Assembly (NCBI RefSeq): GCF_002153425.1
Contig: NZ_KZ119600.1
Span: 217,072 to 281,071, forward strand
DNA: 64,000 nt
Direction of reading: 5' to 3'
Source of the DNA: Litchfieldia alkalitelluris
GTDB lineage: Bacteria; Bacillota; Bacilli; Bacillales; Salisediminibacteriaceae
Part shown: piece after piece, positions 1,014 through 30,815 of the stretch
Layout: every line of letters begins with the position of its first letter
Position numbering within the stretch: the stretch's first letter is position 1
Program-made: the position numbers and the translations under genes
The notes under the pieces: model-generated
What the model saw: only the letters and a program-made list of their open reading frames with translations
Told to the model about the DNA's origin: nothing
The model's database searches: none

Positions 1014-1274
1014 TGATTTTTTGTGTAAGGTACTCGCTTTCCGCGGGCGGCTGGTAAGCCTCCTCCAAATTTCGCCTAAGTACTTGCCCACGTCCTGTGG
1101 GCAACGGCGTAATGTCGGCGTCCTGCCTCCTGCATCTGCAGGGTCTTACCCCTGCCTTTGATCCCGCAGGAACGAGCATAAACATCACGAGTATGCTGCG
1201 AGTTGTCTCGACGGACACACTACGAAGCATTTGCTCGTAGAGGAAGAGACAGGTGTACCTTACACAAAAAATCA
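1014..1274. repeat. MITE-like palindromic intergenic repeat, copy 1
   Basis: The element is bounded by a perfect 19-bp inverted repeat: TGATTTTTTGTGTAAGGTA at 1014-1032 and its exact complement at 1256-1274. The core contains CTCGCTTTCCGCGGGCGG, GGTAAGCCTCCTC and AGGGTCTTACCCCTGCCTTT. The same core occurs in reverse orientation at 9175-9301, and a related form is at 7098-7223. No coding sequence is convincing inside. Small size, terminal inverted repeats and several copies fit a non-autonomous mobile or structured intergenic repeat. Part of the copy (about 1070-1130 and 1180-1250) has no counterpart in the 9.2-kb copy. Confidence 0.75.
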
Positions 1275-1796: not shown

Positions 1797-2432
1797 AAAA
1801 TGTGGACTGAAACCTATGATAAATCAAACTTGAGTCCTCATTTTCAAAGAATGAGGACTGAAACTCATGATAACTAATATTTGAGTCCTCATTTTCCAAG
1901 AATGTGGACTAAAACCTATGATAAATCAATCTTGAGTCCTCATTTTCCAAGAATGTGGACTGAAACTCATGATAAATCAAATTTGAGTCCTCATTTTCCA
2001 AGAATGTGGACTGAAACTCATTAGAAATCAAATTTGAGTCTTCATTTTCCCAGAATGAGGACTGAAACCATCGAGAACTCATATTTGAGTCTTCATTTTC
2101 CCATAATGAAGACTGAACTCCATGAGAAATCAGGTTTGAGTCTTCATTTTCCCAGAATGAAGACTGAAATCCATGAAAACACAGATTTGAGTCTTCATTT
2201 TCTCAGAATGGAGACTGAAACTCATGAGAAATCAGGTTTGAGTCCACATTTTCAAAGAATGTGGACTGAAACTCATGAGGAATCAAAATTGAGTCTTCAT
2301 TTTCCAAGAATGAAGACTGAAACTCATGAGAACTCAAATTTGAGTCCACATTTTCCAAGAATGGAGACTGAACTGCACGAGAAATTAGATTTGAGTCTGC
2401 ATTTCCACAATATCAAGATTCAAGTACTATAG
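1797..2432. repeat. 51-bp tandem hairpin array 1 (about 12 units)
   Basis: Units start at 1831 and recur every 51 bases to 2392. Each has a hairpin of the form AGTCCTCATT, then a 7-base loop, then AATGAGGACT, followed by a spacer of about 20 bases (GAAACTCATGAGAAATCAAA type). The stem varies between units (TCCTCA, TCCACA, TCTTCA) and in several units both arms change together. Because 51 is a multiple of three, a frame stays open (2034-2432), but there is no ribosome binding site and I do not regard it as coding. Two other arrays in the window have the same period with different sequence. Confidence 0.88.
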
Positions 2433-2527: not shown

Positions 2528-4036
2528 GGCTCCTCGCTATTTTGTATGGAATACTAGATATTCTGATAGATTACAAGGTTATCATTTGTATCAGCTTAGC
2601 TAGTATTTCAAACCTGAAATTGCCAGTCAAGGAAAGCACTTGACAGCCAATTTCAGGTTTGAACATTAGTGGTTAGCTGACACAAGGACAAATATTAGCC
2701 ATGAGGCTGAACCTCTAAGTCAAACTTATTTGCTGTCGCATAAATCATGGCGATAAAGTTTGATACAGATCTGTACCCTCTTGCTTTTCGTTTCGATGCT
2801 TGAACAAGACTATTGATACCTTCAAGTAGACCATTGGTTATCTTAGAAACAAAATAACGTAGGATGCCACCTTCATGTTTTTTAAGTGATTTAGCTAAAT
2901 GAACCATCGGTTCCAAACGAGACCTTATTGCCCATTGGTACCATTCATCAAAATACCAACCCGCAAAAGCAGGGGAAGCAGTCCACATTATTTGTAGTGT
3001 TGTTTTTAGTCGATAAGCTTTAGCCGTTTTTAAATGGCCGTCCTTCAGTTTCAGTAGGTTATCTTTTTGCGTATCATTTAGATTCTTTTCGTTTTTCAGC
3101 CAAAGGTATCGTGTCTTTTTGAGGAGTGGTTCCTCACGCTGTTCTTGTCTGCGAACTTGATCCACGGCTTCATTAACCATCTTCATGACATGGAATTTAT
3201 CAAAGGTAATTTCAGCATTTGGAAATGTCTCTTCAATGCCTTTAATAAAAGCTGGAGACATATCACAACAGCACTCTTTAATGGATTCTGCTTGTGCACC
3301 TTTGCTTTCTAGAAGTTCCTTGAATGTTTTTATTACTGAAGCATCCTTTCCTTCAGTGGCAAAGATAACACGTTTTGTATCGACATCCACAAATAGTGTC
3401 ACGTAGTTGTGGCCTCGTTTACTAGAGGTTTCATCAATAGCAATTCGCTTAACGTTTGTAAGATCAATTTCATCCATATGTCTATCGACATAATAATGAA
3501 AGACACGCCAAAGTCGAGTGTCATGTTCTTTTACCTTACGAGAAACAGCAGCTACCGGCATTTCTTTCATGAGTTGCATGACTTCAGCTTCGAAGAACTA
3601 TGTAAAGCTTGAACGAGGACGGGACCAATCAACCACAACGGTACGTATTTTACTGCATAGACTACACTTTACCCGTGGCATCTCTGCATGAAGATGAGTT
3701 TCATATTGCCAAAAGTTCATATGTCTCCAAGTTCTCTCTTCTGGTAATCGATCATAGATCGACGTATGAGAGGAACCACAATGGGGACAAATAAACTGAG
3801 CATTACGTTTATAATCTAGATAAATATGGAGCTTTTCTTCTTCTTGGTCCAGTTCATACCCTGTGACATACCATGGATCTTCAATTTTAAGAGCAGCTTG
3901 AAACACACTATATTCTTGTTCAAAACCTTTGTTCATTATTCATTCACCTCTGGTCATAGATTCATAGTCTTTATATCCAGTATGGTCAATGAATCTTAAA
4001 TCTAGTCTTTCATTTCATATTAAATAGCGAGGAAGC
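2528..4036 (-). mobile_element. ISL3-family insertion sequence with 8-bp target duplication
   Basis: The terminal inverted repeats are GGCTCCTCGCTATTT at 2528 and, on the other strand, GCTTCCTCGCTATTT ending at 4036. The 8-bp direct repeat TTAAAATT flanks it at 2520-2527 and 4037-4044. An 8-bp duplication, a length of about 1.5 kb and the transposase type fit the ISL3 family. The intact duplication suggests a fairly recent insertion. It landed immediately downstream of the stop codon of the amidohydrolase gene and leaves that gene whole. Confidence 0.92.
2695..3936 (-). pseudogene. ISL3-family transposase interrupted by one TAG codon
   Basis: The first 112 codons (3936 down to 3601) encode the zinc-finger end typical of ISL3 transposases (CPHCGS and CSLC pairs). 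A TAG at 3598-3600 then interrupts the frame. The same frame continues as FFEAEVMQLMKEMP and runs to 2695 with the DDE-type catalytic domain (AIDETSSKRGHNYVT, CCCDMSPAFIKG, and ITNGLLEGINSL near the end). No frameshift is needed; changing one base (TAG to TTG, Leu) would restore a product of about 413 residues, close to family length. As written it is a pseudogene or an amber-truncated gene, so the copy is probably immobile without suppression or a trans source. Confidence 0.9.
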
Positions 4037-14933: not shown

Positions 14934-15092
14934 TGTGGATAATGGGGAAAAACATGTCGAAACGTGACAAACTAGGGATTTGAGTTGTTAACAATAAAAC
15001 TGTGGATAAGTGTGTGTAAATGTGAATAACATGAGTGAACGCTTTTATTTATTGATTATAACTGTGGATAGGGTTGTGGATTATGTGGATAT
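14934..15092. promoter_or_regulatory. DnaA-box cluster downstream of tsaD
   Basis: Exact DnaA boxes (TGTGGATAA) occur at 14934-14942 and 15001-15009. One-mismatch copies occur at 15021 (TGTGAATAA), 15063 (TGTGGATAG), 15075 (TGTGGATTA) and 15084 (TGTGGATAT). More exact boxes lie inside the following gene at 15448, 15709 and 15748, and one in the other orientation at 16135. Six exact 9-mers in about 1.2 kb compares with about 0.01 expected by chance. DnaA-box clusters outside oriC are known in B. subtilis, and I recall one near gcp (tsaD). This is not oriC: dnaA and dnaN are not here. Confidence 0.8.
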
Positions 15093-17302
15093 GTCAGAAA
15101 ATTAGCTTGATTAGAGTATTTGTTCTATTAATAATCGCATTTATGTGTGCGACGCCTTTTATAAAAGCCAATGAAGCTGAAACGGATTCAGCTTTGAATC
15201 CTCCTGTGGAAAAACACCTTGTCCTATTACTTGTCCCAGGACTTAGTTTTTCAGAAATTGAACAGCTTCATGATGCTTCAGATTATAAACATTGGGAGAC
15301 TGGTACTTTTGCAGTCGTAAACTTAAAGCCTGATGGCAACTATTCCTATTTAAATAATACCGTGAGCTTGGCTAGTGGAAAAAGGGCACTGGGGATAATG
15401 GGCTGGAACGGATTTGAAAAGGGTGAAACTTGGGAGGAAGTTATCCCTGTGGATAATATTTTTCACCGTTGGCATGGTTATATCCCCAACGCCCCCATCA
15501 TTCATCCACAAATTCATGAGTTGATAAAGAAGAATGAGAAGTCGAGTTTCCATGCTTCTATAGGTTGGTTTGGAACAATGCTAAAAGAGGAGGGGGTAAA
15601 GGCTACAACCATTGGAAACTCTGATACTTCTGATGAGAGGATTAGGTATGGCTCTTTATTTGTAATGGATCAGGATGGGGAAGCAGATGGATCACTTCAT
15701 GATGTCGTTGTGGATAAACCAAATTATCCAGGTGGCAAAAAAATGAGTGTGGATAAGATTATAGAGAAATTAACAACTATTCATGAAGATAACTCAACCA
15801 CATTCACGGTTATAGAATGGGGGGACTTACATCGTTTTTTTCACGAAAGAACAAAGATGACGGACGCCCACGCAGATCAGATGTATGAAAAGCTACTATT
15901 TGAATTGGATCAGGCGTTGAGCAGGATTTTACATGACACATCTGGAGAAGTGTGGCTCTTATCCCCGGCTGTGAATGACATATCTTATAAAGAGCGAAGG
16001 CAATTGGGGCCATTGTGGATTTGGGATGAAACCCGTGAAAAATTAGGAAACGTCTATTCATCAACAACGAGAAGGGATTACTTAGTCAGTAATACAGATG
16101 TTGTCCCTACATTGGCAGAGAGACTTGGATTGACTTATCCACAGGAAAAAGTGTTAGGATCTCCACTTCGCAAATTACCAGTTGTGGATAGGGAGGAATT
16201 TCGAGAGTTTTCTACGAGAATTGACGAAATCAATAAAGTTTTTGCTAATCGAGGGTCCGTCTTGTCTAGTTACATCTCAGGGCTAGTTGCCATGCTTGTG
16301 ATTGTTTCATGTGTGATCTGGTTCTTTAAGAAAAAAACGAAGTGGAAGCGACTCGCAAGCACACTTCTCTTAAGTGGTGTGCTGTCTCCATTTTGGTTTT
16401 TAATAACTGTGGCGCTTGTTTTACCATTATCGTCCTATCAATATGTACTGGTCATTATCATGGCAAGTGTTTTATCAGGACTAGTTCTAAATGGGACCAC
16501 GAAAGCACCATTCAGTGTAGCTTGTGCCATCTTTTTTGTGACACTCACTGTAGATGTTGTCGTGTTAGGGAGCTTTTTTACAGAACGTTCCTTTCTTAGC
16601 TATGATCCTGTCATCGGTGCGAGGTATTATGGGATCGGCAATGAGTATGCGGGGATATTTATCGTTTCGGGATTGCTCTTAACTGCGCCTTTGTTAGAAA
16701 GGGAAAGGCTAAATCCCTATTGGACTGGTGGAATTCTACTCCTCATCGTCACGTGGCTCATTGGAGTCTTGGGAAGTGCTTCCTTTGGGGCGAATGCAGG
16801 GGCAAGTCTAGCCACAGGTGTTATGTTTCTGTATGTGTTGAATCGACTATTTTTTGCGAAAAAAAAGGTAGGGTTTCAAGTACTCCTATTCCTTTTGTTC
16901 TTTGTAGGAGTATTGATTACTTTGTATATGGTTCAATTATCCCAGCCAATAAGTCATATCACCATTGGCTTTCAACAACTCTTAAGTGGAGATTGGCAAA
17001 CCATTTTACAAACGATCAGTAGGAAATTGCAAATGAACTGGAAGATTTTCAAAGTATCTTATTGGACTCAGTTATTTATTACGAGCTATTTCTTAATAGG
17101 GTTGATTTTGTGGAGGCGTCGGAAAGAGCATTTATCCAGACATCAAGATTTCCTCATTAACTGCTGTATTGTGGCGTCCCTGGCCCTGCTAGTATTAAAT
17201 GATTCAGGAATTGTAGCGGCTGCCACCTCCATGTTTATAACGTTATCTGTCTGCTATGGTTGGTCCTTATCGAAGAAGCAAGGGGAAGCAAATAGCGGGT
17301 GA
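15083..17302 (+). CDS. Membrane protein with N-terminal alkaline-phosphatase-superfamily domain
   Basis: I do not recognise a named gene. The protein has a signal-anchor-like segment (about residues 8-27), an extracellular domain with alkaline-phosphatase-superfamily traits (VLLLVPGLSFSEIE after residue 45, TTIGNSDTSDE, and SNTDVVPTLAERLGL near 330, a stretch common near the end of such domains), then from about residue 395 some nine or ten hydrophobic segments. It might act on a lipid or cell-surface phosphate or sulfate ester; that is inference. The start is uncertain: ATG at 15083 or TTG at 15074, both inside DnaA-box-like sequence and with only weak ribosome binding sites. Three exact DnaA boxes lie in the first 700 bases of coding sequence. 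Confidence 0.75.
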   Translation: MWICQKISLIRVFVLLIIAFMCATPFIKANEAETDSALNPPVEKHLVLLLVPGLSFSEIEQLHDASDYKHWETGTFAVVNLKPDGNYSYLNNTVSLASGKRALGIMGWNGFEKGETWEEVIPVDNIFHRWHGYIPNAPIIHPQIHELIKKNEKSSFHASIGWFGTMLKEEGVKATTIGNSDTSDERIRYGSLFVMDQDGEADGSLHDVVVDKPNYPGGKKMSVDKIIEKLTTIHEDNSTTFTVIEWGDLHRFFHERTKMTDAHADQMYEKLLFELDQALSRILHDTSGEVWLLSPAVNDISYKERRQLGPLWIWDETREKLGNVYSSTTRRDYLVSNTDVVPTLAERLGLTYPQEKVLGSPLRKLPVVDREEFREFSTRIDEINKVFANRGSVLSSYISGLVAMLVIVSCVIWFFKKKTKWKRLASTLLLSGVLSPFWFLITVALVLPLSSYQYVLVIIMASVLSGLVLNGTTKAPFSVACAIFFVTLTVDVVVLGSFFTERSFLSYDPVIGARYYGIGNEYAGIFIVSGLLLTAPLLERERLNPYWTGGILLLIVTWLIGVLGSASFGANAGASLATGVMFLYVLNRLFFAKKKVGFQVLLFLLFFVGVLITLYMVQLSQPISHITIGFQQLLSGDWQTILQTISRKLQMNWKIFKVSYWTQLFITSYFLIGLILWRRRKEHLSRHQDFLINCCIVASLALLVLNDSGIVAAATSMFITLSVCYGWSLSKKQGEANSG

Positions 17303-17343
17303 TGGAAAAATAAAGTGGGTGGTTTTGGAAGGGAAAATTGTGT

Positions 17344-18385
17344 ATCTCGTACCAGATCAAGGGGGGAATTAGGTATGAGAATGGGCGGAAGTGTGAATTT
17401 CACCAAATCAAAAGTCGATCAGGTATGAGAATTGGAAAAGTGTGAATCTCATACCAGATCAAGGGCCGATCAGGTATGAGAAAGTGAAAAGTGAGAATCT
17501 CATACCAGATCAAGGGTCGATCAGGTATGAGAATTGGAAAAGTGTGAATCTCATACCAGATCAAGGGCCGATCAGGTATGAGAAAGTGAAAAGTGAGAAT
17601 CTCATACCAGATCAAGGGTCAATCAGGTATGAGAACTGGAAAAATCCGAATCTCATACCAGATCAAGGGCCGATCAGGTATGAGAAAAGAAAAATCCATA
17701 ATCTCATACCAGATCAAAGGTCAATAAGGTATGAGAACTGGAAAAATCCGAATCTCATACCAGATCAAGGGTCGATCAGGTATGAGAATTGGAAAAGTGT
17801 GAATCTCATACCAGATCAAGGGCCGATCAGGTATGAGAAAGTGAAAAGTGAGAATCTCATACCAGATCAAAGGCCGATCTGGTATGAGAAAGTGAAAAGT
17901 ATGAATCTCATACCAGATCAAAGGTCGATCAAGTATGAGAAACAAGAAAATGTGAATCTCATACCAGATCAAGGGCCGATCAGGTATGAGAACAGGAAAA
18001 AGAAGAATCTCATACCAGATCAAGGGTCGATCAGGTATGAGAATGAGAAAAATGTGAATCTCATACCAGATCAAGGGTCGATCAGGTATGAGAATGAGAA
18101 AAATCCGAATCTCATACCAGATCAAGGGTCGATCAGGTATGAGAATGTGAAAAGTGAGAATCTCATACCAGATCAAGGGCCGATCAGGTATGAGAAAAGA
18201 AAAATCCAGAATCTCATACCAGATCAAGGGTCGATCAGGTATGAGAATGTGAAAAATGTGAATCTCATACCAGATCAAGCGTCGATCGGGTATGAGAATG
18301 TGAAAAGTATGAATCTCAGACCAGATCAAAGGCCGATCAGGTATGAGAATGTGAAAATCCAGAATCTCATACCAGATCAATCGAC
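17344..18385. repeat. 51-bp tandem hairpin array 2 (about 20 units)
   Basis: From 17447 to 18365 the phrase TCTCATACCAGATCAAGG recurs every 51 bases exactly, with two imperfect units before it (17344 and 17398, the latter two bases short). Each unit folds as TCTCATACC-A-GATC, a loop of about 7, GATC-A-GGTATGAGA: a 13-pair stem with one A-A mismatch. A variable 16-base spacer (for example GAAAGTGAAAAGTGAG) separates hairpins. Frames are open on both strands (plus 17442-18431, minus 17721-18380) because the 51-base unit lacks stops; no ribosome binding site supports either. It sits between convergent genes. Confidence 0.92.
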
Positions 18386-18509
18386 GCCCGCGATACCTCG
18401 ATATGATAGGGAATACCCCGCCTATACTTAATAGCCTTTACAAACTAGCATCAGATTCTGAAACAAGATCATCCCCGTTTTGCCCTGGAAGTTACTCCAG
18501 TTACTCCAG

Positions 18510-20459
18510 TTACTCCATTTCATCTAGCTGCAGTTCTTCCCATTCTTCCATTAATGCTTCAATGTTAGTTTTTGCTTTTTCGAGTGATTCGTTAATTTCA
18601 AGGGATTTTTCGTGGTCTTGAAAGATCTCAGGGTCACAAAGATCTTCTTCCCATTGAGCAATTCGTTCCTCTTCCTGCTCAATTTCCTTCTCTAATTCTT
18701 CGATTCTTCGCTGGCGTTGGCGCTGCTTTTTCTTGAGCTCTTTCTCTCGCTCATAATCTTGCTTCGTTTGTTGTTCGACCTGGCCAGGTGCAGGATCCTT
18801 TCTACTAGGTGACTGCTCTTTATCCTTTAACTCCTCAAGTTTTTTCCACTCTTCCTGCTCAAGTTTCTTTGCTAGATAGTAGTCGTAGTCGCCTAAGTAG
18901 TTAGTAATCATCTTAGGGGATAATTCCACAACCCTAGTAGCCATGCGATTTACGAAATAGCGGTCGTGGGAGACGAAGAGCAGTGTGCCAGGGTAGTCAA
19001 TGAGCGCAGATTCTAAAACCTCTTTACTATCCAAGTCTAGATGGTTTGTAGGCTCGTCCAGAATTAATAGGTTGGCTTTCTTCATCATTAACTTTGCTAA
19101 TGCAAGGCGGGCTTTTTCTCCACCACTTAAATCGTAAACGATCTTTAAAACATCTTCGCCACTAAACAGGAAGTTTCCAAGAATAGTTCTTATGTCCTTT
19201 TCAGGTGTTTGAGGATATTCATCCCATAATTCTTGGAGAACTGTCTTGTTCGATGTGAGTTCCGTTTGTTCTTGATCATAATAGCCAATAGTAACGTTAC
19301 TGCCGTATTGAATATTTCCTTCCAGAGGTGCAATTTTCTTAGAGATGGCTTTAATAAGCGTGGATTTACCTATTCCGTTAGGTCCGATTAAAGCAACACT
19401 TTCTCCTCTAGTTAATTTCAAATTGATGTTTTCAATAAGTGTTTTACCACCGTAGCCGAGCTTTAAATGATCTATGGAAAGAACGTCATTCCCACTTTGT
19501 TTTATGATCTCAAATCTAAAGTTCGCAGAAGCATCGTCGTCTTGAGGACGGTTCTTGACACTTATTTTTTCGAGTTGTTTCCGTCGACTTTTTGCACGAT
19601 TACTGGTGGAGGCACGGGCAATATTCCGTTGTACAAAATCCTCCAGTTTTTTAATTTCATCCTGTTGTTTTTCAAAATTCTTCATTTCTATTTCTAAGCG
19701 CTTCGCTTTTTCAGAAAGATAATTACTATAGTTACCTGTGTATTTCACAGTTTTATTAAAGGAAAGCTCGTAGACTTGATTCACGACATTATCTAAAAAG
19801 TAGCGGTCGTGGGAAACGATCAAAATTGCCCCGTCATATCCAGATAAATAGTTTTCCAACCAAGTAAGTGTTTCAATATCTAAATGGTTCGTAGGCTCAT
19901 CAAGAATCAATAAGTCAGGCTTTGTTAATAAGAGCTTTCCAAGGGCTAGACGGGTTTTTTGTCCACCACTCAAAGAACTAATTTTCGTTGCGTAATCAAA
20001 GCTAGCAAAATTGAGTCCCGATAGGATACCGCGAGTATCAGCTTCATACTGATAGCCACCTTGATCTTTAAAGTCCTGCTGTAATTGGTCATACTCCATG
20101 AGGACTTTCTCGTAATTTGGGTTCTCAGTATCACTCATTTTTTCTTCTAAACGACGTAAAGCTTGTTCCATTTTTTGAAGGTGTTCAAATACAGTCATCA
20201 TTTCATCCCATATAGATCGGTCGGATTCCAAGCCACTATCTTGGGCAAGATAACCAATACGAGCGTCCTTTGGTATGATCAAATCTCCAGTATCAAAAGA
20301 CATTTCACCTGCAATTATTTTTAATAGAGTTGACTTTCCAGCACCGTTTCGACCAACGAGGGCGACGCGATCCCGGCTTTGTACTTCTAATTTAACATTT
20401 GATAATATTTCTTCAGCACCAAAGGATTTGGATAACTGAACACATTGTAATAGAATCAT
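18510..20459 (-). CDS. ydiF: ABC-F family ATPase, YdiF type
   Basis: ABC-F proteins are soluble twin-ATPase factors that bind the ribosomal E site and rescue or tune translation. This 649-residue protein has two ATP-binding domains: Walker A GRNGAGKST near residue 38 and GPNGIGKST near 350, signatures LSGGQKTRLALGK and LSGGEKARLALAK, and two LILDEPTNHLD Walker B motifs. The linker between the domains (240-320) is basic, and a charged coiled coil follows from about 540. Length and position next to moaC and rex match B. subtilis YdiF. It is convergent with the upstream membrane-protein gene across array 2. The stop is followed by a 9-bp tandem repeat (GGAGTAACT) that repeats in-frame stop codons. 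Confidence 0.92.
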   Translation of the reverse strand: MILLQCVQLSKSFGAEEILSNVKLEVQSRDRVALVGRNGAGKSTLLKIIAGEMSFDTGDLIIPKDARIGYLAQDSGLESDRSIWDEMMTVFEHLQKMEQALRRLEEKMSDTENPNYEKVLMEYDQLQQDFKDQGGYQYEADTRGILSGLNFASFDYATKISSLSGGQKTRLALGKLLLTKPDLLILDEPTNHLDIETLTWLENYLSGYDGAILIVSHDRYFLDNVVNQVYELSFNKTVKYTGNYSNYLSEKAKRLEIEMKNFEKQQDEIKKLEDFVQRNIARASTSNRAKSRRKQLEKISVKNRPQDDDASANFRFEIIKQSGNDVLSIDHLKLGYGGKTLIENINLKLTRGESVALIGPNGIGKSTLIKAISKKIAPLEGNIQYGSNVTIGYYDQEQTELTSNKTVLQELWDEYPQTPEKDIRTILGNFLFSGEDVLKIVYDLSGGEKARLALAKLMMKKANLLILDEPTNHLDLDSKEVLESALIDYPGTLLFVSHDRYFVNRMATRVVELSPKMITNYLGDYDYYLAKKLEQEEWKKLEELKDKEQSPSRKDPAPGQVEQQTKQDYEREKELKKKQRQRQRRIEELEKEIEQEEERIAQWEEDLCDPEIFQDHEKSLEINESLEKAKTNIEALMEEWEELQLDEME

Positions 20460-21086: not shown

Positions 21087-21140
21087 TAGTGCATATGAAA
21101 TCATTGTTATGTAAAAATTTTTATGTGGAGGGGAGTTATT

Positions 21141-21776
21141 ATGGATATCGATCAAGCTAAAATACCACAAGCAACTGCAAAGCGATTACCTTTATACTAC
21201 CGTTTTTTAGAAAACTTACATGCATCAGGAAAACATCGTGTCTCCTCATCTGAATTAAGTGAAGCAGTAAAGGTTGACTCCGCAACTATTCGCAGAGATT
21301 TCTCATACTTTGGTGCCTTGGGGAAAAAAGGTTATGGCTATAATGTAAATTATTTATTATCATTCTTCCGTAAAACATTAGATCAAGATGAGGTAACGAA
21401 AGTAACGTTAGTTGGGGTAGGTAACCTAGGAACAGCACTAATGAACTATAATTTTTCCAAAAACAACAGTACTAGAATTGAAATGGCATTCGACGTAGCA
21501 GAAGATAAAGTCGGGAAAAAAATTGGAAGCGTTCCCATTTATCATTTGGACGAGTTCAAGGAGCGTGTGGCTAATGAAGTGGAAGTTGCAATACTAACTG
21601 TTCCAGCCAACGCAGCTCAGCAAATCGCCGATCAATTGGTAGCTGGTGGAATTAAGGGGATTTTAAACTTTACGCCAGCAAGATTAACGGTTCCAGACGA
21701 TGTTCGAGTTCATCACATTGACCTATCAGTGGAACTACAATCATTAATTTACTTTTTAAGACATTATCCAATTTAA
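21141..21776 (+). CDS. rex: Redox-sensing transcriptional repressor Rex
   Basis: Rex represses fermentation and respiration genes and leaves DNA when NADH rises. The protein has an N-terminal winged helix ([26 protein letters not shown], 42-67), a Rossmann NAD(H) fold with [13 protein letters not shown] near 92, and a C-terminal swapped helix ([13 protein letters not shown]). I start at the ATG at 21141 behind GGAGGGGAG; the in-frame ATG at 21123 precedes that site. Length, 211 residues, is normal. A terminator-like hairpin follows at 21799. Confidence 0.95.
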
Positions 21777-21882: not shown

Positions 21883-22256
21883 AGGAAATGCGGCCTAGAA
21901 TATGGGAAATGTTTGAACTTAGTCCGCAATTTGAGAAAATGGGGCCTAGATTATGAGGAGTGGTTGAACTTAGTCCGCAATTTAAGAAAATGCGGCCTAG
22001 AATAAGGAAAATGGCAGAACTTAGTCCGCAATCTGGGAAAATGTGGACTAGGATAAGGGAAATGGTTGAACTTAGTCCGCAATTTGAGAAAATGCGGCCT
22101 AGAATATGGAAAATGGTTGAGCCTAGTCCGCAATTTGAGAAAATGCGGACTAGGAATAAGGAAAATGGCAGAACTTAGTCCGCAATCTGAGAAAATGCGG
22201 CCTAGAATATGGAAAATGGTTGAGCTTAGTCCGCAATTTAAGAAAATGCGGACAGA
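21883..22256. repeat. 51-bp tandem hairpin array 3 (about 7 units)
   Basis: CTTAGTCCGCAATTTGAGAA recurs at 21918, 21969, 22020, 22071, 22122, 22173 and 22224, exactly 51 bases apart, with a partial unit before. Each unit pairs TAGTCCGCA(ttt) with (aaa)TGCGGACTA or TGCGGCCTA, then a spacer of about 20 bases of the type GAATATGGAAAATGGTTGA. It shares period and hairpin-plus-spacer design, but no sequence, with arrays 1 and 2. Short frames on both strands are side effects of the 17-codon period. Confidence 0.9.
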
Positions 22257-22625
22257 AATATATGTATTTGCAGGATCTATTCCACATTGTTAGGAAATGT
22301 ATTCAAGATCCTAGCTATTGGTTTCAATTCTTAAAAATCTTAATTTCCCACACATCGACAACTATCTCATGGTATAGTTATATTAATGTTTCGACTATCG
22401 AAGTGAATTTCAACAGACAGGATTACCGCCGTAGTAGGTTTACACACAACAGTGGAAGTACTATCATAAGTAGGATTAACCATAACAATGGAAATAACAT
22501 CATAACTAGGGTTAACCTATACAACAACAGCGATAATTCGAACATAAGTGAAAGCGACAAAACAAAACAAACTTCAAACTTAAAATAACACTACCAAAAT
22601 ATTTAATTGTGCAGGTGACTACATA
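22257..22625. other. Intergenic stretch upstream of the MFS gene
   Basis: About 370 bases with no gene I can support. A frame at 22220-22588 begins in array 3 and encodes low-complexity Asn/Ser/Thr text with no ribosome binding site. The stretch near 22370-22390 (ATGGTATAGTTATATT) could hold a -10 element for the MFS gene, but no matching -35 is clear. Confidence 0.5.
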
Positions 22626-24038
22626 GTGAGTAAAATACCGCAAAAATGGCTTGTCATTATTACAGTGCTTTTAGGAACGTTTACAGTAATTCTTAATAAC
22701 AGTATGTTAAACCCAGCTGTACCTCATCTAATGAATGTGTTTGGGACAGATGCAGTCGCAACGGGGTGGATCATCACCATCTTTATGGTAACGATGGGGA
22801 TTACAATGCCGATTACAGGATACCTTGGTGATAGAATTGGGAAAAAACAGCTCTATATGCTAGGACTCTTGTTATTTGTTATTGGCTCACTGTTAGGCTC
22901 TATTTCATGGAGCTTACCATCATTAATTGTATTTCGCGGACTTCAAGGAATCGGCGGAGGCATGATGATGCCAATTGCTATGGCATTAATATTTGAAGTT
23001 TTCCCAAGAAAAGAGCGGGGCTTGGCTACAGGGGTTTATGGGATCGCCGCAATGATGGCGCCAACGATTGGGCCTACATTAGGTGGAGTCATTATTGAAA
23101 TGGGGAGCTGGCAATGGCTATTTCTTTGTAATATCCCAACAGGAATACTAGGGCTAGTCTTTTCAGCAATCTATCTAAAACGAACAGTGAAAGTTACTAA
23201 TATATCATTTGATCTATCTGGATTTGTTACTGTGACGCTTGGAGTAGGAGCAATTTTATTTGCCTTGGCCAGAGTATCGGAGTTCACCCACTTAAGGGAT
23301 CCATTGAATATTCTATTATTTATTCTAGGTGCATTTGCTATGTGGCTGTTTATTAGGATCGAAAACAACAAGGAACAGCCTTTACTAGATTTGTCGATTT
23401 TTAAAGTGCCAGCATATACGTATTCCGTATTAGTAGGAAGTGTTAGTTCGATCAGCTTGTTTGGTGGAATCTTTCTTTTACCATTACTAATACAAAATGT
23501 ATACGGATATGGAGCGATCATGACAGGACTAACCTTTTTGCCATCCGCACTACTGACGGGGATTTTTATGACAGTAGGGGGACGTGCTTTAGATAAAAAG
23601 GGACCATCCTTAGTTGTTACTTTAGGTTTGTCTCTTATTGCATTAGCAACAGTATTTCTCGGATTTTTGTCAATGGAATCAGGCCTATGGATCATTTTCT
23701 TGTTAAATGCCATAAGAGGGATAGGTATGGGGCTGAGTACGATGCCATCAACTACGGCTGGAATGAATGCGATACCTGAGCAGTTTGTATCTAGGGGCTC
23801 TGCCATGAACAATGTTTTAAGGCAGATGAGTTCTTCCTTAGGAATTGTGTTCTTTTCAATCTACTTTGAAGTGAGACGCTCACAGATTGAGGCCGTTAAT
23901 GGATTAACGATTCAAGAGGCGAGCCTACAGGCGATCAATGAAGGTTTTATTGTAATGGCAGTTCTTACCATTATCACTATTCCACTTGGACTTTTATTAG
24001 GGAAAGAATATAAAAAACAACAGCAGAAGGAAAACTAG
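22626..24038 (+). CDS. MFS drug transporter, DHA2 (EmrB/QacA) type
   Basis: This 470-residue membrane protein has about 14 hydrophobic segments, as expected for proton-coupled DHA2 drug exporters. Motif A is seen as GYLGDRIGKKQLY (65-77), and motif C as GPTLGGVII after residue 150 in the fifth segment. The most likely role is efflux of a toxic compound; the substrate cannot be read from sequence. The start is GTG at 22626 behind CAGGTGA. No regulator gene is adjacent. It lies between rex and ydiK, where I recall tatAy-tatCy in B. subtilis, so it may be a later arrival. Confidence 0.88.
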   Translation: MSKIPQKWLVIITVLLGTFTVILNNSMLNPAVPHLMNVFGTDAVATGWIITIFMVTMGITMPITGYLGDRIGKKQLYMLGLLLFVIGSLLGSISWSLPSLIVFRGLQGIGGGMMMPIAMALIFEVFPRKERGLATGVYGIAAMMAPTIGPTLGGVIIEMGSWQWLFLCNIPTGILGLVFSAIYLKRTVKVTNISFDLSGFVTVTLGVGAILFALARVSEFTHLRDPLNILLFILGAFAMWLFIRIENNKEQPLLDLSIFKVPAYTYSVLVGSVSSISLFGGIFLLPLLIQNVYGYGAIMTGLTFLPSALLTGIFMTVGGRALDKKGPSLVVTLGLSLIALATVFLGFLSMESGLWIIFLLNAIRGIGMGLSTMPSTTAGMNAIPEQFVSRGSAMNNVLRQMSSSLGIVFFSIYFEVRRSQIEAVNGLTIQEASLQAINEGFIVMAVLTIITIPLGLLLGKEYKKQQQKEN

Positions 24039-29116: not shown

Positions 29117-30781
29117 ATGAAAGCAAAAAACCATCAAGTGTCCGTATTTGCCCTCGGAGGTATGGGGGAGATCGGAAAAAATATGTATGCTATACAATTT
29201 CAAGATGAGATTATTATTATTGATGCGGGACTAAAATTTCCTGAGGATGAATTATTAGGAATTGATTTAGTTATTCCAGATTATACGTATTTAGAGAAGA
29301 ATAAAGATAAAATTAAAGGGCTGTTTATCACGCATGGCCACTTAGATCATATAGGTGGTATTCCATATTTACTTCGGCAAATAAATATTCCTATTTATGG
29401 TGGGAAATTAGCCTTAGGACTTATTCGTAATCATCTAGACGAACATGGGTTACTCAGGGAAGCAAAATTAATCGAAATTCACGAAGATGAGGTAGTGAAG
29501 TTCACCAAAACATCCGTTTCCTTTTTTAGGACGACCCACAGTATCCCTGATTCCTACGGTGTCGTTGTAAAAACACCACCTGGCAACATTGTACACACAG
29601 GGGATTTTAAATTTGATTTTACCCCTGTCGGTGAACCAGCAAATTTGACTAAAATGGCCAAATTAGGAGAAGAAGGAGTCCTATGTCTTCTATCAGATAG
29701 TACAAACAGTGAAGTTCCAGGCTTTACCATGTCTGAGCGGAAGGTAGGGGAAAGTATTGATAATATCTTCCGAAACGTAGAGGGGAGAATTATTTTTGCG
29801 ACTTTTGCATCAAACATTTACCGTCTTCAACAAGCAATAGAAGCAGCAGTTAAATACGGTAGAAAAGTCGCTGTCTTTGGCCGAAGCATGGAAAGAGCGG
29901 TGGATTTGGCTTTAGGTTTAGGTTATATCAAGGTGCCCAAGAACACATTTATCGATGCCACACAATTAGGTAAGTTGTCCAGTGAGCAAGTTGTAATCTT
30001 ATGTACAGGGAGTCAAGGGGAGCCGATGGCAGCCCTTTCTCGTATTGCTCACGGAAGGCATAATAAAATTGAAATTATCCCTGGAGACACAGTAGTATTT
30101 TCAGCTTCCCCAATCCCTGGTAATACATTAAGTGTAAATAAGATTATCAATCAGCTTTATCGTGTAGGGGCGGATGTTATTCATGGTCCATTAAATGACA
30201 TTCATACATCAGGTCATGGCGGGCAAGAGGAGCAAAAACTAATGCTTCGCCTATTACAACCTAAGTATTTTCTTCCTATTCACGGAGAATACCGGATGCT
30301 GAAGCAACATGTTCAATTAGCTAAAAGCTGTGGTGTTGATGAAGAGAACTGTTTTATTTTGGATAATGGTGAAGTTTTAGCTTTAGATCAAAATGAAGCG
30401 TCCTTAGCTGGTAAAATCCCATCGTCATCCGTCTATGTTGATGGAAGTGGGATCGGGGATATTGGGAATATTGTAATAAGAGACCGGCGAATTCTATCGG
30501 AAGAAGGGCTTGTCGTGGTTGTTGTTACATTAAACATGAAAGAGTTCCAGGTGACTGCAGGACCGGATATTATTTCTCGTGGTTTTGTATATATGCGGGA
30601 GTCAGGAAACTTAATTAATGAAGCACAAGAAAAAATTTCAGCACATCTCCATCAGTTAATGGAAAATAAAACAACACAATGGTCGGAAATCAAGAATGAA
30701 ATTACGGATGTCCTTGGCCCATTTTTATATGAAAAAACAAAACGTAAACCAATGATTCTTCCAATCATTATGGAAATATAA
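29117..30781 (+). CDS. Ribonuclease J family protein
   Basis: RNase J is the Firmicutes 5'-3' exonuclease and endonuclease for mRNA and rRNA. This 554-residue protein has the beta-lactamase-fold metal site [10 protein letters not shown] (73-82), [20 protein letters not shown] and SGHGGQEEQ with the beta-CASP motifs between. The length fits J1 (about 555). B. subtilis rnjA lies elsewhere, next to rpoY, so I infer that this is an extra copy or RNase J1 paralogue in an accessory region. GGAG lies before the ATG. A terminator follows at 30816. It is divergent from the integrase. Confidence 0.9.
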
Positions 30782-30815
30782 AATAAATATAAAATAAATA
30801 TAAAATAAATAAATC

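Follow-up and report, generated by a model that had tools for sequence, protein, structure and literature searches.

What keeps the length of a repeat unit constant while much of its text is left free is the question raised by a window of 64 kb, the whole stretch of DNA analysed here, in which tandem arrays occur at three places with one and the same period. The initial annotation, made from the letters alone, had described repeats every 51 bases at these places, and this period was recovered by TRF in each of them (Table 1). The ORF that borders array 2 on the minus strand, whose product we take to be of the ABC-F type, encodes a protein with nearest named relatives in Evansella tamaricis (82%) and E. 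vedderi (80%). Four matches reached the gathering score in an Rfam scan of the window, none of them on an array; a Bacillaceae-1 RNA (RF01690) was found at 1060-1129 (+), directly past the 5S rRNA (36.4 bits, cut-off 35), and minor repeats of 36 bp and 11 bp were reported by TRF outside the arrays at 22433-22517 and 30774-30811.

Table 1. Positions, unit counts (TRF) and cores of the tandem arrays in the 64-kb window
Feature	Coordinates	Strand	Units or length	Core or structure	Placement
Array 1	1799..2404	+	11.9 units x 51 bp	family B, AGTCCTCATT-7-AATGAGGACT	3' of the rRNA operon end (LSU 1-762, 5S 846-960), ahead of ORF 2695-3579 (-)
Array 2	17331..18380	+	20.6 units x 51 bp	family A, TCTCATACC-A-GATC-7-GATC-A-GGTATGAGA	between convergent ORFs 15074-17302 (+) and 18510-20459 (-)
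Array 2, example unit (dyad/hairpin)	17447..17481	+	35 bases	DNA fold: 9-bp outer stem, A/A mismatch, 4-bp inner stem, 7-base loop	spacer of 16 bases directly after it (17482-17497)
Array 3	21886..22251	+	7.2 units x 51 bp (row at 153 too)	family C, TAGTCCGCA.TT / AATGCGG.CTA; same core superfamily as array 1	between ORFs 21123-21776 (+) and 22626-24038 (+)

The window arrays almost certainly belong to a class of bacterial tandem repeats with constant length (51-53 nt) and variable sequence, which Subirana and Messeguer described for Bacillus in 2021 (PMC8161180). Because the phenomenon has already been published for that genus, this genome joins a known class, and the remark that no described family with this property was known could not be upheld. 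In the accessible part of that paper, 1886 cases of 51-53 nt and 781 cases of 20-21 nt are given for 176 Bacillus genomes, the repeats are described as species-specific, with short sequences and their reverse often lying within one unit, genomes rich and poor in repeats of 51-53 nt are both listed, a polymerising protein or small RNAs are suggested as explanations, and a 2020 J Bacteriol paper of the same authors is cited for the class. The present arrays share these properties: the unit is 51-53 nt long, the 7.2-20.6 units of the window arrays exceed the published minimum of four, several families of the same size and different text (A, B/C, D, E, F and G/H) coexist in the genome, the texts are species-specific and non-coding, and short sequences together with their reverse occur inside the units. 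Families 37_52_10 and 61_52_6 of B. cellulosilyticus in Table 1 of PMC8161180 resemble, by eye, families P and Q of the congener G002, and families A-C are absent from that table. The words "orientation", "palindrom" and "hairpin" do not occur in the accessible text of PMC8161180, although the 2020 paper could report orientation or hairpins; relative to that text, the randomness of the spacer at fixed length, the replication orientation in Evansella and the folding statistics are new.

Of the 4.88-Mb genome, 853 kb including the window were examined, made up of stretches round BLAST matches (arrays 2, 1 and 3 had 56, 53 and 44 matches in the own genome, respectively) and of 19 stretches of 20 kb (380 kb) spread along the chromosome apart from those fetched earlier. 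In the 19 spaced stretches, the period was 52-53 in five of the six arrays with a period of at least 20 and at least 2.9 copies, and 24 in the sixth; these arrays differ in text from those of the window. Grouping hid a further locus of one spaced stretch (L082), where 21-bp blocks (3.0 and 3.3 copies) lie beneath a 103-bp row. Arrays of 51-53 bp occupied 7,425 of 444,000 bases in the spaced stretches and the window, the window's three arrays included. Over all stretches of the genome, a set enriched for relatives of the window arrays by the BLAST retrieval, 74 arrays reached 2.9 copies; 67 of them had a period of 51-53 (50 at 51, 16 at 52 and one at 53), one had a period of 102 and six had other periods; widely varied periods, which the initial annotation had named as counter-evidence, were thus not encountered in this set or in the spaced sample. 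Spacing is also regular from unit to unit: with N-containing arrays skipped, 508 of 530 intervals in the 51-bp arrays measured exactly 51 (range 49-53), 197 of 204 in the 52-bp arrays measured 52 (range 43-56) and 28 of 35 in the 53-bp arrays measured 53. Units within one array agree well (TRF matches mostly 80-99%), and single or partial units form 11 clusters outside arrays. The same periods bear on a reading as coding repeats, in which 51 bp would represent 17 codons; the ORFs 17442-18431 (+) and 17721-18380 (-) cover most of array 2. The coding reading has practically no probability: arrays of 52 and 53 bp in the same genome cannot hold a frame, the congeners use 52, and opposite frames are open over array 2, which is what a stop-free unit gives by chance.

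The array texts of the genome were sorted into family A (array 2), families B and C (arrays 1 and 3) and families D, E, F, G and H. A comparison of G with H gives scores of 20-24, above the 95th percentile of shuffles (18), so that at least six core texts look independent. The proposal that the three window arrays are unrelated in sequence therefore holds for array 2 against the others and fails for arrays 1 and 3, which have the core AGTC..CATT / AATG..G.CT in common, bridged by intermediate arrays elsewhere. In 43 B/C arrays centred on the 7-base loop, the left arm carries AGTC and CATT (or near forms) and the right arm AATG and G.CT, with few exceptions, and intermediates link the B and C consensus sequences. 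The TRF period was 51 in 42 of the 44 B/C arrays. An alignment of 41 arrays, which omits two of the 43 rows (consensus 50 long) and which one C array of period 53 never entered, gave a mean identity of 0.79 for the arms and of 0.95-1.00 for the best core columns, whereas 14 inner spacer columns reached only 0.25-0.39. When the spacers were compared pair by pair (780 pairs of 40 arrays, one array of period 50 also being omitted), their identity tracked the within-spacer shuffle null apart from a tail, in which 92 pairs shared at least 8 of the 14 columns and about 13 were expected. Single linkage at 9 of 14 matching columns divided the spacers of these 40 arrays, all of period 51 and all on one B/C core, into 18 text clusters, 13 of which are single arrays. 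The unit is an imperfect dyad, with conserved arms and a short loop of mostly 7 bases, joined to a spacer of fixed length and free text; in the B/C family the length is held at 51 while most spacer pairs match at chance level, and the earlier observation that the period is conserved while the text is not is borne out. At the junctions between families, unit spacings of about 53, 55 and 59 were read by hand from the sequence, so no exact register is kept across family joins. Composite arrays near C1 3758258 and 4092480 (L048 and L055) contain an identical join of a family-B unit into a family-D array (CGCTCCACTTCTATTACCGACAG), and such joined arrays therefore seem to be copied from locus to locus.

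A fixed length of 51 combined with free spacer text implies that the length is either selected or set by a mechanism. For selection, we propose that what is conserved is the distance between dyad sites, some five turns of B-DNA, and that a cooperatively binding protein or set of proteins would read the dyads at the DNA level, each on the same face of the helix. The arrays could grow and homogenise through unequal recombination or slippage, and length variants would be removed because they fall out of helical phase. For a mechanism, the machine and not selection would set the length: an amplification ruler, for which no lattice function is needed, would copy the dyad core together with a fixed length of adjoining DNA, and each new array would capture its local spacer. 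The 18 spacer clusters on one core suit such capture, under which this variety needs no long drift, as do the close agreement of units within an array beside spacers that differ between arrays, and the existence of single and partial units; the continuum of related spacers in the tail of the pairwise comparison, on the other hand, is what drift would give.

The dyads were examined by folding. Two-unit samples folded as DNA gave z -6.7 and -9.0 on the two strands for array 2, -1.7 and -1.0 for array 1, and -0.6 and -1.6 for array 3; a second test, on consensus units in doubled form and with a different shuffle, gave a score to array 1 (z -3.8 and -2.5) but not to array 3. The stem-loop assigned to every unit in the initial annotation is accordingly strong in array 2, whereas the samples of arrays 1 and 3 show it weakly. 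Of 67 arrays of the genome (doubled consensus, unit shuffled), 39 fell below z = -2 on the leading strand and 32 on the opposite one, the leading-strand proportion ranging from 13 of 15 arrays in family A to 3 of 13 in family C. Stable folding is not universal, 28 of 67 arrays missing this value on the leading strand, so that "hairpins at fixed spacing" overstates the pattern and the arms may matter beyond stable hairpins. The best inverted repeat had a 7-base loop in 50 of 84 arrays of the genome. Among 27 published consensus repeats, 15 had an inverted repeat that was matched by at most 3 of 60 shuffles, and in nine of these 15 the loop was 5 or 7 bases long. Odd loops were seen in the best dyads of 80 of the 84 own arrays, which are not independent, and of 13 of the 15 significant published repeats, as against about half in shuffles; they could mean that the dyad centre is a base pair.

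Covariation between the arms within units was found as well: 7505 Watson-Crick pairs were counted against 7469.9 (sd 8.4), a value reached in none of 2000 permutations, with gap handling uncontrolled. Counts of pairing across the spacer were set aside, since edge effects make them incomparable. The covariation leans to pairing rather than to independent half-sites, and to that extent counts against the lattice. It would be expected if the arrays acted as transcribed chains of RNA hairpins, as a source of small RNAs, a protein sponge or a 3'-end stabiliser. Transcription of 52-nt repeats in B. coagulans, seen by RNA-seq (PMC8625621, according to its accessible part), points in the same direction and may also weigh against the lattice, and the strong folding of family A fits an RNA. 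On the leading strand, G-T pairs exceed A-C pairs in families B (114 to 49) and D (52 to 20), which would suit an RNA, whereas A (33 to 44) and C (22 to 21) are unskewed; the overall ratio in a strand-symmetric recount (262 to 158) is driven by B and D. In arrays between genes that both run against the leading strand, the G-T excess leans to the gene strand (31 to 14). A larger skew of 722 to 107 was discarded as a sign of RNA selection because the pairs had been chosen by RNAfold, which biases the count. Set against an RNA role are the arrays that miss the folding value on the leading strand, the lack of a terminator-like site in 17200-18600 of the window in a simple scan, and the lack of Rfam matches at the gathering score on the window arrays; it also gives no evident ground for an exact spacing of 51-53. 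We consider this explanation rather improbable.

In relation to the surrounding genes, 49 of the 85 arrays of the genome lay in co-directional, 21 in convergent and nine in divergent gaps, and six were unclassed, whereas the background gaps of at least 100 bp, from simple ORF calls, comprised 233, 69 and 88, respectively. In these counts the background includes array-bearing gaps, stretch L172 overlaps L069, and a 49-bp array (2.3 copies) and periods outside 49-54, 43, 102 and 104 are omitted. Divergent gaps hold fewer arrays than the background predicts (9 of 79 against 88 of 390, p = 0.03), and convergent gaps are preferred over divergent ones (21 to 9 against a background of 69 to 88, p = 0.01), while convergent against all other gaps was not significant (p = 0.08). 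None of the 85 arrays lay inside a called gene (simple ORF calls, ORFs overlapped by arrays by at least 30% having been removed first). The placement of the arrays relative to genes is counted in favour of the lattice, and the depletion from divergent gaps agrees with a transcribed RNA as well. It is also a feature of REPs, which are not favoured between divergent genes according to the accessible part of PMC3733652, and the arrays might accordingly be REP/BIME-type elements moved by RAYT transposases. Four Y1 transposase frames of the genome are RAYT-sized (218-281 aa) and a fifth has 135 aa; for two of the four, an array is some 8 kb distant (3705334-3705936 and 3972768-3973179), which may be chance at this array density. 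A search of about 5 kb on each side of the four RAYT-sized genes revealed flanks without the array core, and an origin of the arrays from REP/RAYT is disfavoured on this basis. Moreover, the array consensus units gave a single 17-base match to the RAYT stretches (E 0.004, L176), four such genes face at least six core families, and the RAYT-type gene at C1 3980816-3981154 (L175) is followed by inverted copies of GGGACGGTTCTCCCGTTTAC, seen by eye, which form a separate REP-like element. A REP/RAYT explanation has very little probability, and the suggestion of a hairpin-cleaving enzyme in the initial annotation found nothing to rest on beside the five Y1 transposase genes, where the 17-base match was the only similarity and no array core was present.

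The orientation of the arrays was compared with replication, taking the sign changes of GC skew near 4.7 and 2.6 Mb as origin and terminus. The purine-rich strand is the leading one in 62 of 72 own arrays outside 0.48-0.52, and because the purine bias, though real, is modest in sum (0.555 in arrays against 0.523 in array-free gaps), the core sequence only was used for the test. Agreement with the replichore was found for families A (18 of 21), B (22 of 26) and C (15 of 16) in the own genome and for P (11 of 13), Q (7 of 7) and K (15 of 16) in the congeners; it was not significant for M (6 of 7), E (3 of 4) and D (3 of 6), the own-genome families D and E showing no replication polarity. The total of 100 of 116 arrays in the own genome, G002 and G005 is biased upward because the sense of a family is its majority by definition, and neighbouring and copied arrays in it are not independent. 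A reference core, which families F, G and H lack, could be given to 76 of the 85 arrays of the own genome, to 20 of the 24 of G002 and to 23 of the 26 of G005, three of those assigned being undecided. Agreement with replication persists in 53 of 64 arrays whose neighbouring genes do not both run in the leading-strand sense, namely 12 of 14 between genes both against it, 25 of 30 in convergent and 16 of 20 in divergent gaps. For most families of these three Evansella species, orientation agrees with replication rather than with the adjoining genes, which points to array use or spreading tied to the replichore there; the 12 of 14 arrays speak against a transcribed RNA, and a process at the replication fork, as under the amplification ruler, would suit this orientation. 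A more specific form of the ruler, in which a text-blind machine acting on the lagging-strand template in Evansella duplicates the dyad core with a fixed 16-20 adjoining bases, is regarded as unlikely; if true, a single core would come to carry many spacers of its own at an unchanged unit length of 51, 52 or 53, some five helical turns.

Replication orientation as a general property of the class was rejected by two genomes of other genera. Among the matches listed, one main family in G244 followed the replichore in the better sense at 17 of 27 loci (p = 0.25) and one in G338 at 18 of 31 (p = 0.47), with skew-defined replichores, the best 40 of 55 candidates per genome and loci collapsed by hand. 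The best fit over all cuts, again among the matches listed, was 19 of 27 in G244 and 24 of 31 in G338, values that 203 and 21 of 300 shuffles, respectively, also reached. This limits what the orientation in Evansella can mean, and it tells against the ruler in so far as the ruler draws on orientation.

Text and period were both followed into relatives. The text of array 2 was found in one of nine genomes of the genus, that of array 1 in one of 35 of the family and that of array 3 in one of 150 of the order (best four candidates per genome scored), in each case the own genome; array 2 gave no match to 50,697 phage and 72,556 plasmid records at the search sensitivity used. The congeners G005 and G002 had 25 of 25 and 21 of 21 arrays (at least 2.9 copies, 45-60 bp) at exactly 52 with other texts, two more in G002 lying at 104, in stretches mostly fetched round matches. 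In ten evenly spaced 20-kb stretches of each, a period of 52 was seen in two of nine arrays of G002 (one more at 104) and four of nine of G005, the rest being 18-42. One family from G002 and one from G005, each searched in the other congener, gave no match. The alignment of 14 arrays of family K in G005 has conserved arms on both sides of seven contiguous columns with identity below 0.4, at a fixed 52. In the wider family (18 stretches, six genomes), G023 has a 33-unit array of 51 bp and G021 has arrays of 20, 67 and 71 bp. A published B. litoralis core, TGTCGTTCAT-AAGGGTG-ATGAACGACA, explains matches in 12 of 18 matching genomes (397 genomes of the order searched); these span 10 genera, several at 52-base steps (best two candidates per genome scored), so that at least one core text seems shared, against the species-specific rule.

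The gap that holds array 2 measures 1207 bp here against 185, 143 and 56 bp in three named Evansella with the same convergent genes, where TRF found no array, and that of array 3 measures 849 bp against about 429, 276 and 176 bp. Among the four genomes compared, array 2 is a lineage-specific gain at its site. A gain that fills a short gap in this way is in keeping with the amplification ruler; among the relatives compared, neither an enzyme nor an empty-site flank with the captured spacer was found. The ruler is a possible explanation, less probable than the lattice.

The lattice of phased dyad sites at the DNA level is put forward tentatively, as a mechanism that falls somewhat short of probable; the best reading as a whole, membership in the published class combined with selected spacing of dyad sites, comes a little closer to probable without reaching it. 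The occurrence of a two-turn class of 20-21 nt in the same genus argues for the lattice. The strongest objection is the presence of six or more unrelated cores in one genome, which one sequence-specific protein could hardly read and which a text-blind duplication ruler explains better. Also against it stand the inexact junction spacing, the periods of the evenly spaced congener stretches, in which 51-53 is not the majority, and the missing polarity in two genera. A cooperatively binding array protein was not identified in this analysis. As to the mechanisms first suggested for the window, a constraint on length or a mechanism that sets it is well supported and a protein-binding lattice remains live, whereas the hairpin-cleaving enzyme is without evidence. 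A sequence class that keeps its length while its wording stays free is unusual, and a clean handle on it is offered here by a family of 44 arrays with a near-invariant core, a fixed 51 and spacers at chance level in most pairs; two congeners with other cores at 52 add to this handle, and a descriptive puzzle becomes a testable question.

Compared with the class of PMC8161180, in its accessible part, the large families of this genome have a mode of 51, whereas the published mode is 52. The second class of that paper, of 20-21 nt or two helical turns, is likewise constant in length, variable in text and species-specific; its members differ from the arrays of 51-53 in being direct repeats, no dyad being apparent in the examples here. 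Arrays of 18, 20-21 and 42 bp are also present in the congeners, and direct-repeat arrays of 20-21 or 42 bp were noted in L186, L188 and L189 (congeners), L202 (G021), L262 (G338) and L082 of the own genome, some of which may be coding. REP/BIME elements resemble the arrays in being palindromic and extragenic and in avoiding divergent gaps (PMC3733652, accessible part), the array unit being palindromic and extragenic and folding in part only. Unlike REP/BIME elements, the arrays are tandem at a fixed period, occur in many unrelated texts per genome and have no core beside RAYT genes. CRISPR arrays are regular and combine constant with variable parts, their spacers being non-repeating. The present arrays share with them a regular arrangement of constant and variable parts; PMC8161180 likewise compares its repeats with CRISPR. 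In contrast to CRISPR, the present arrays repeat whole units within an array and occupy tens of loci per genome.
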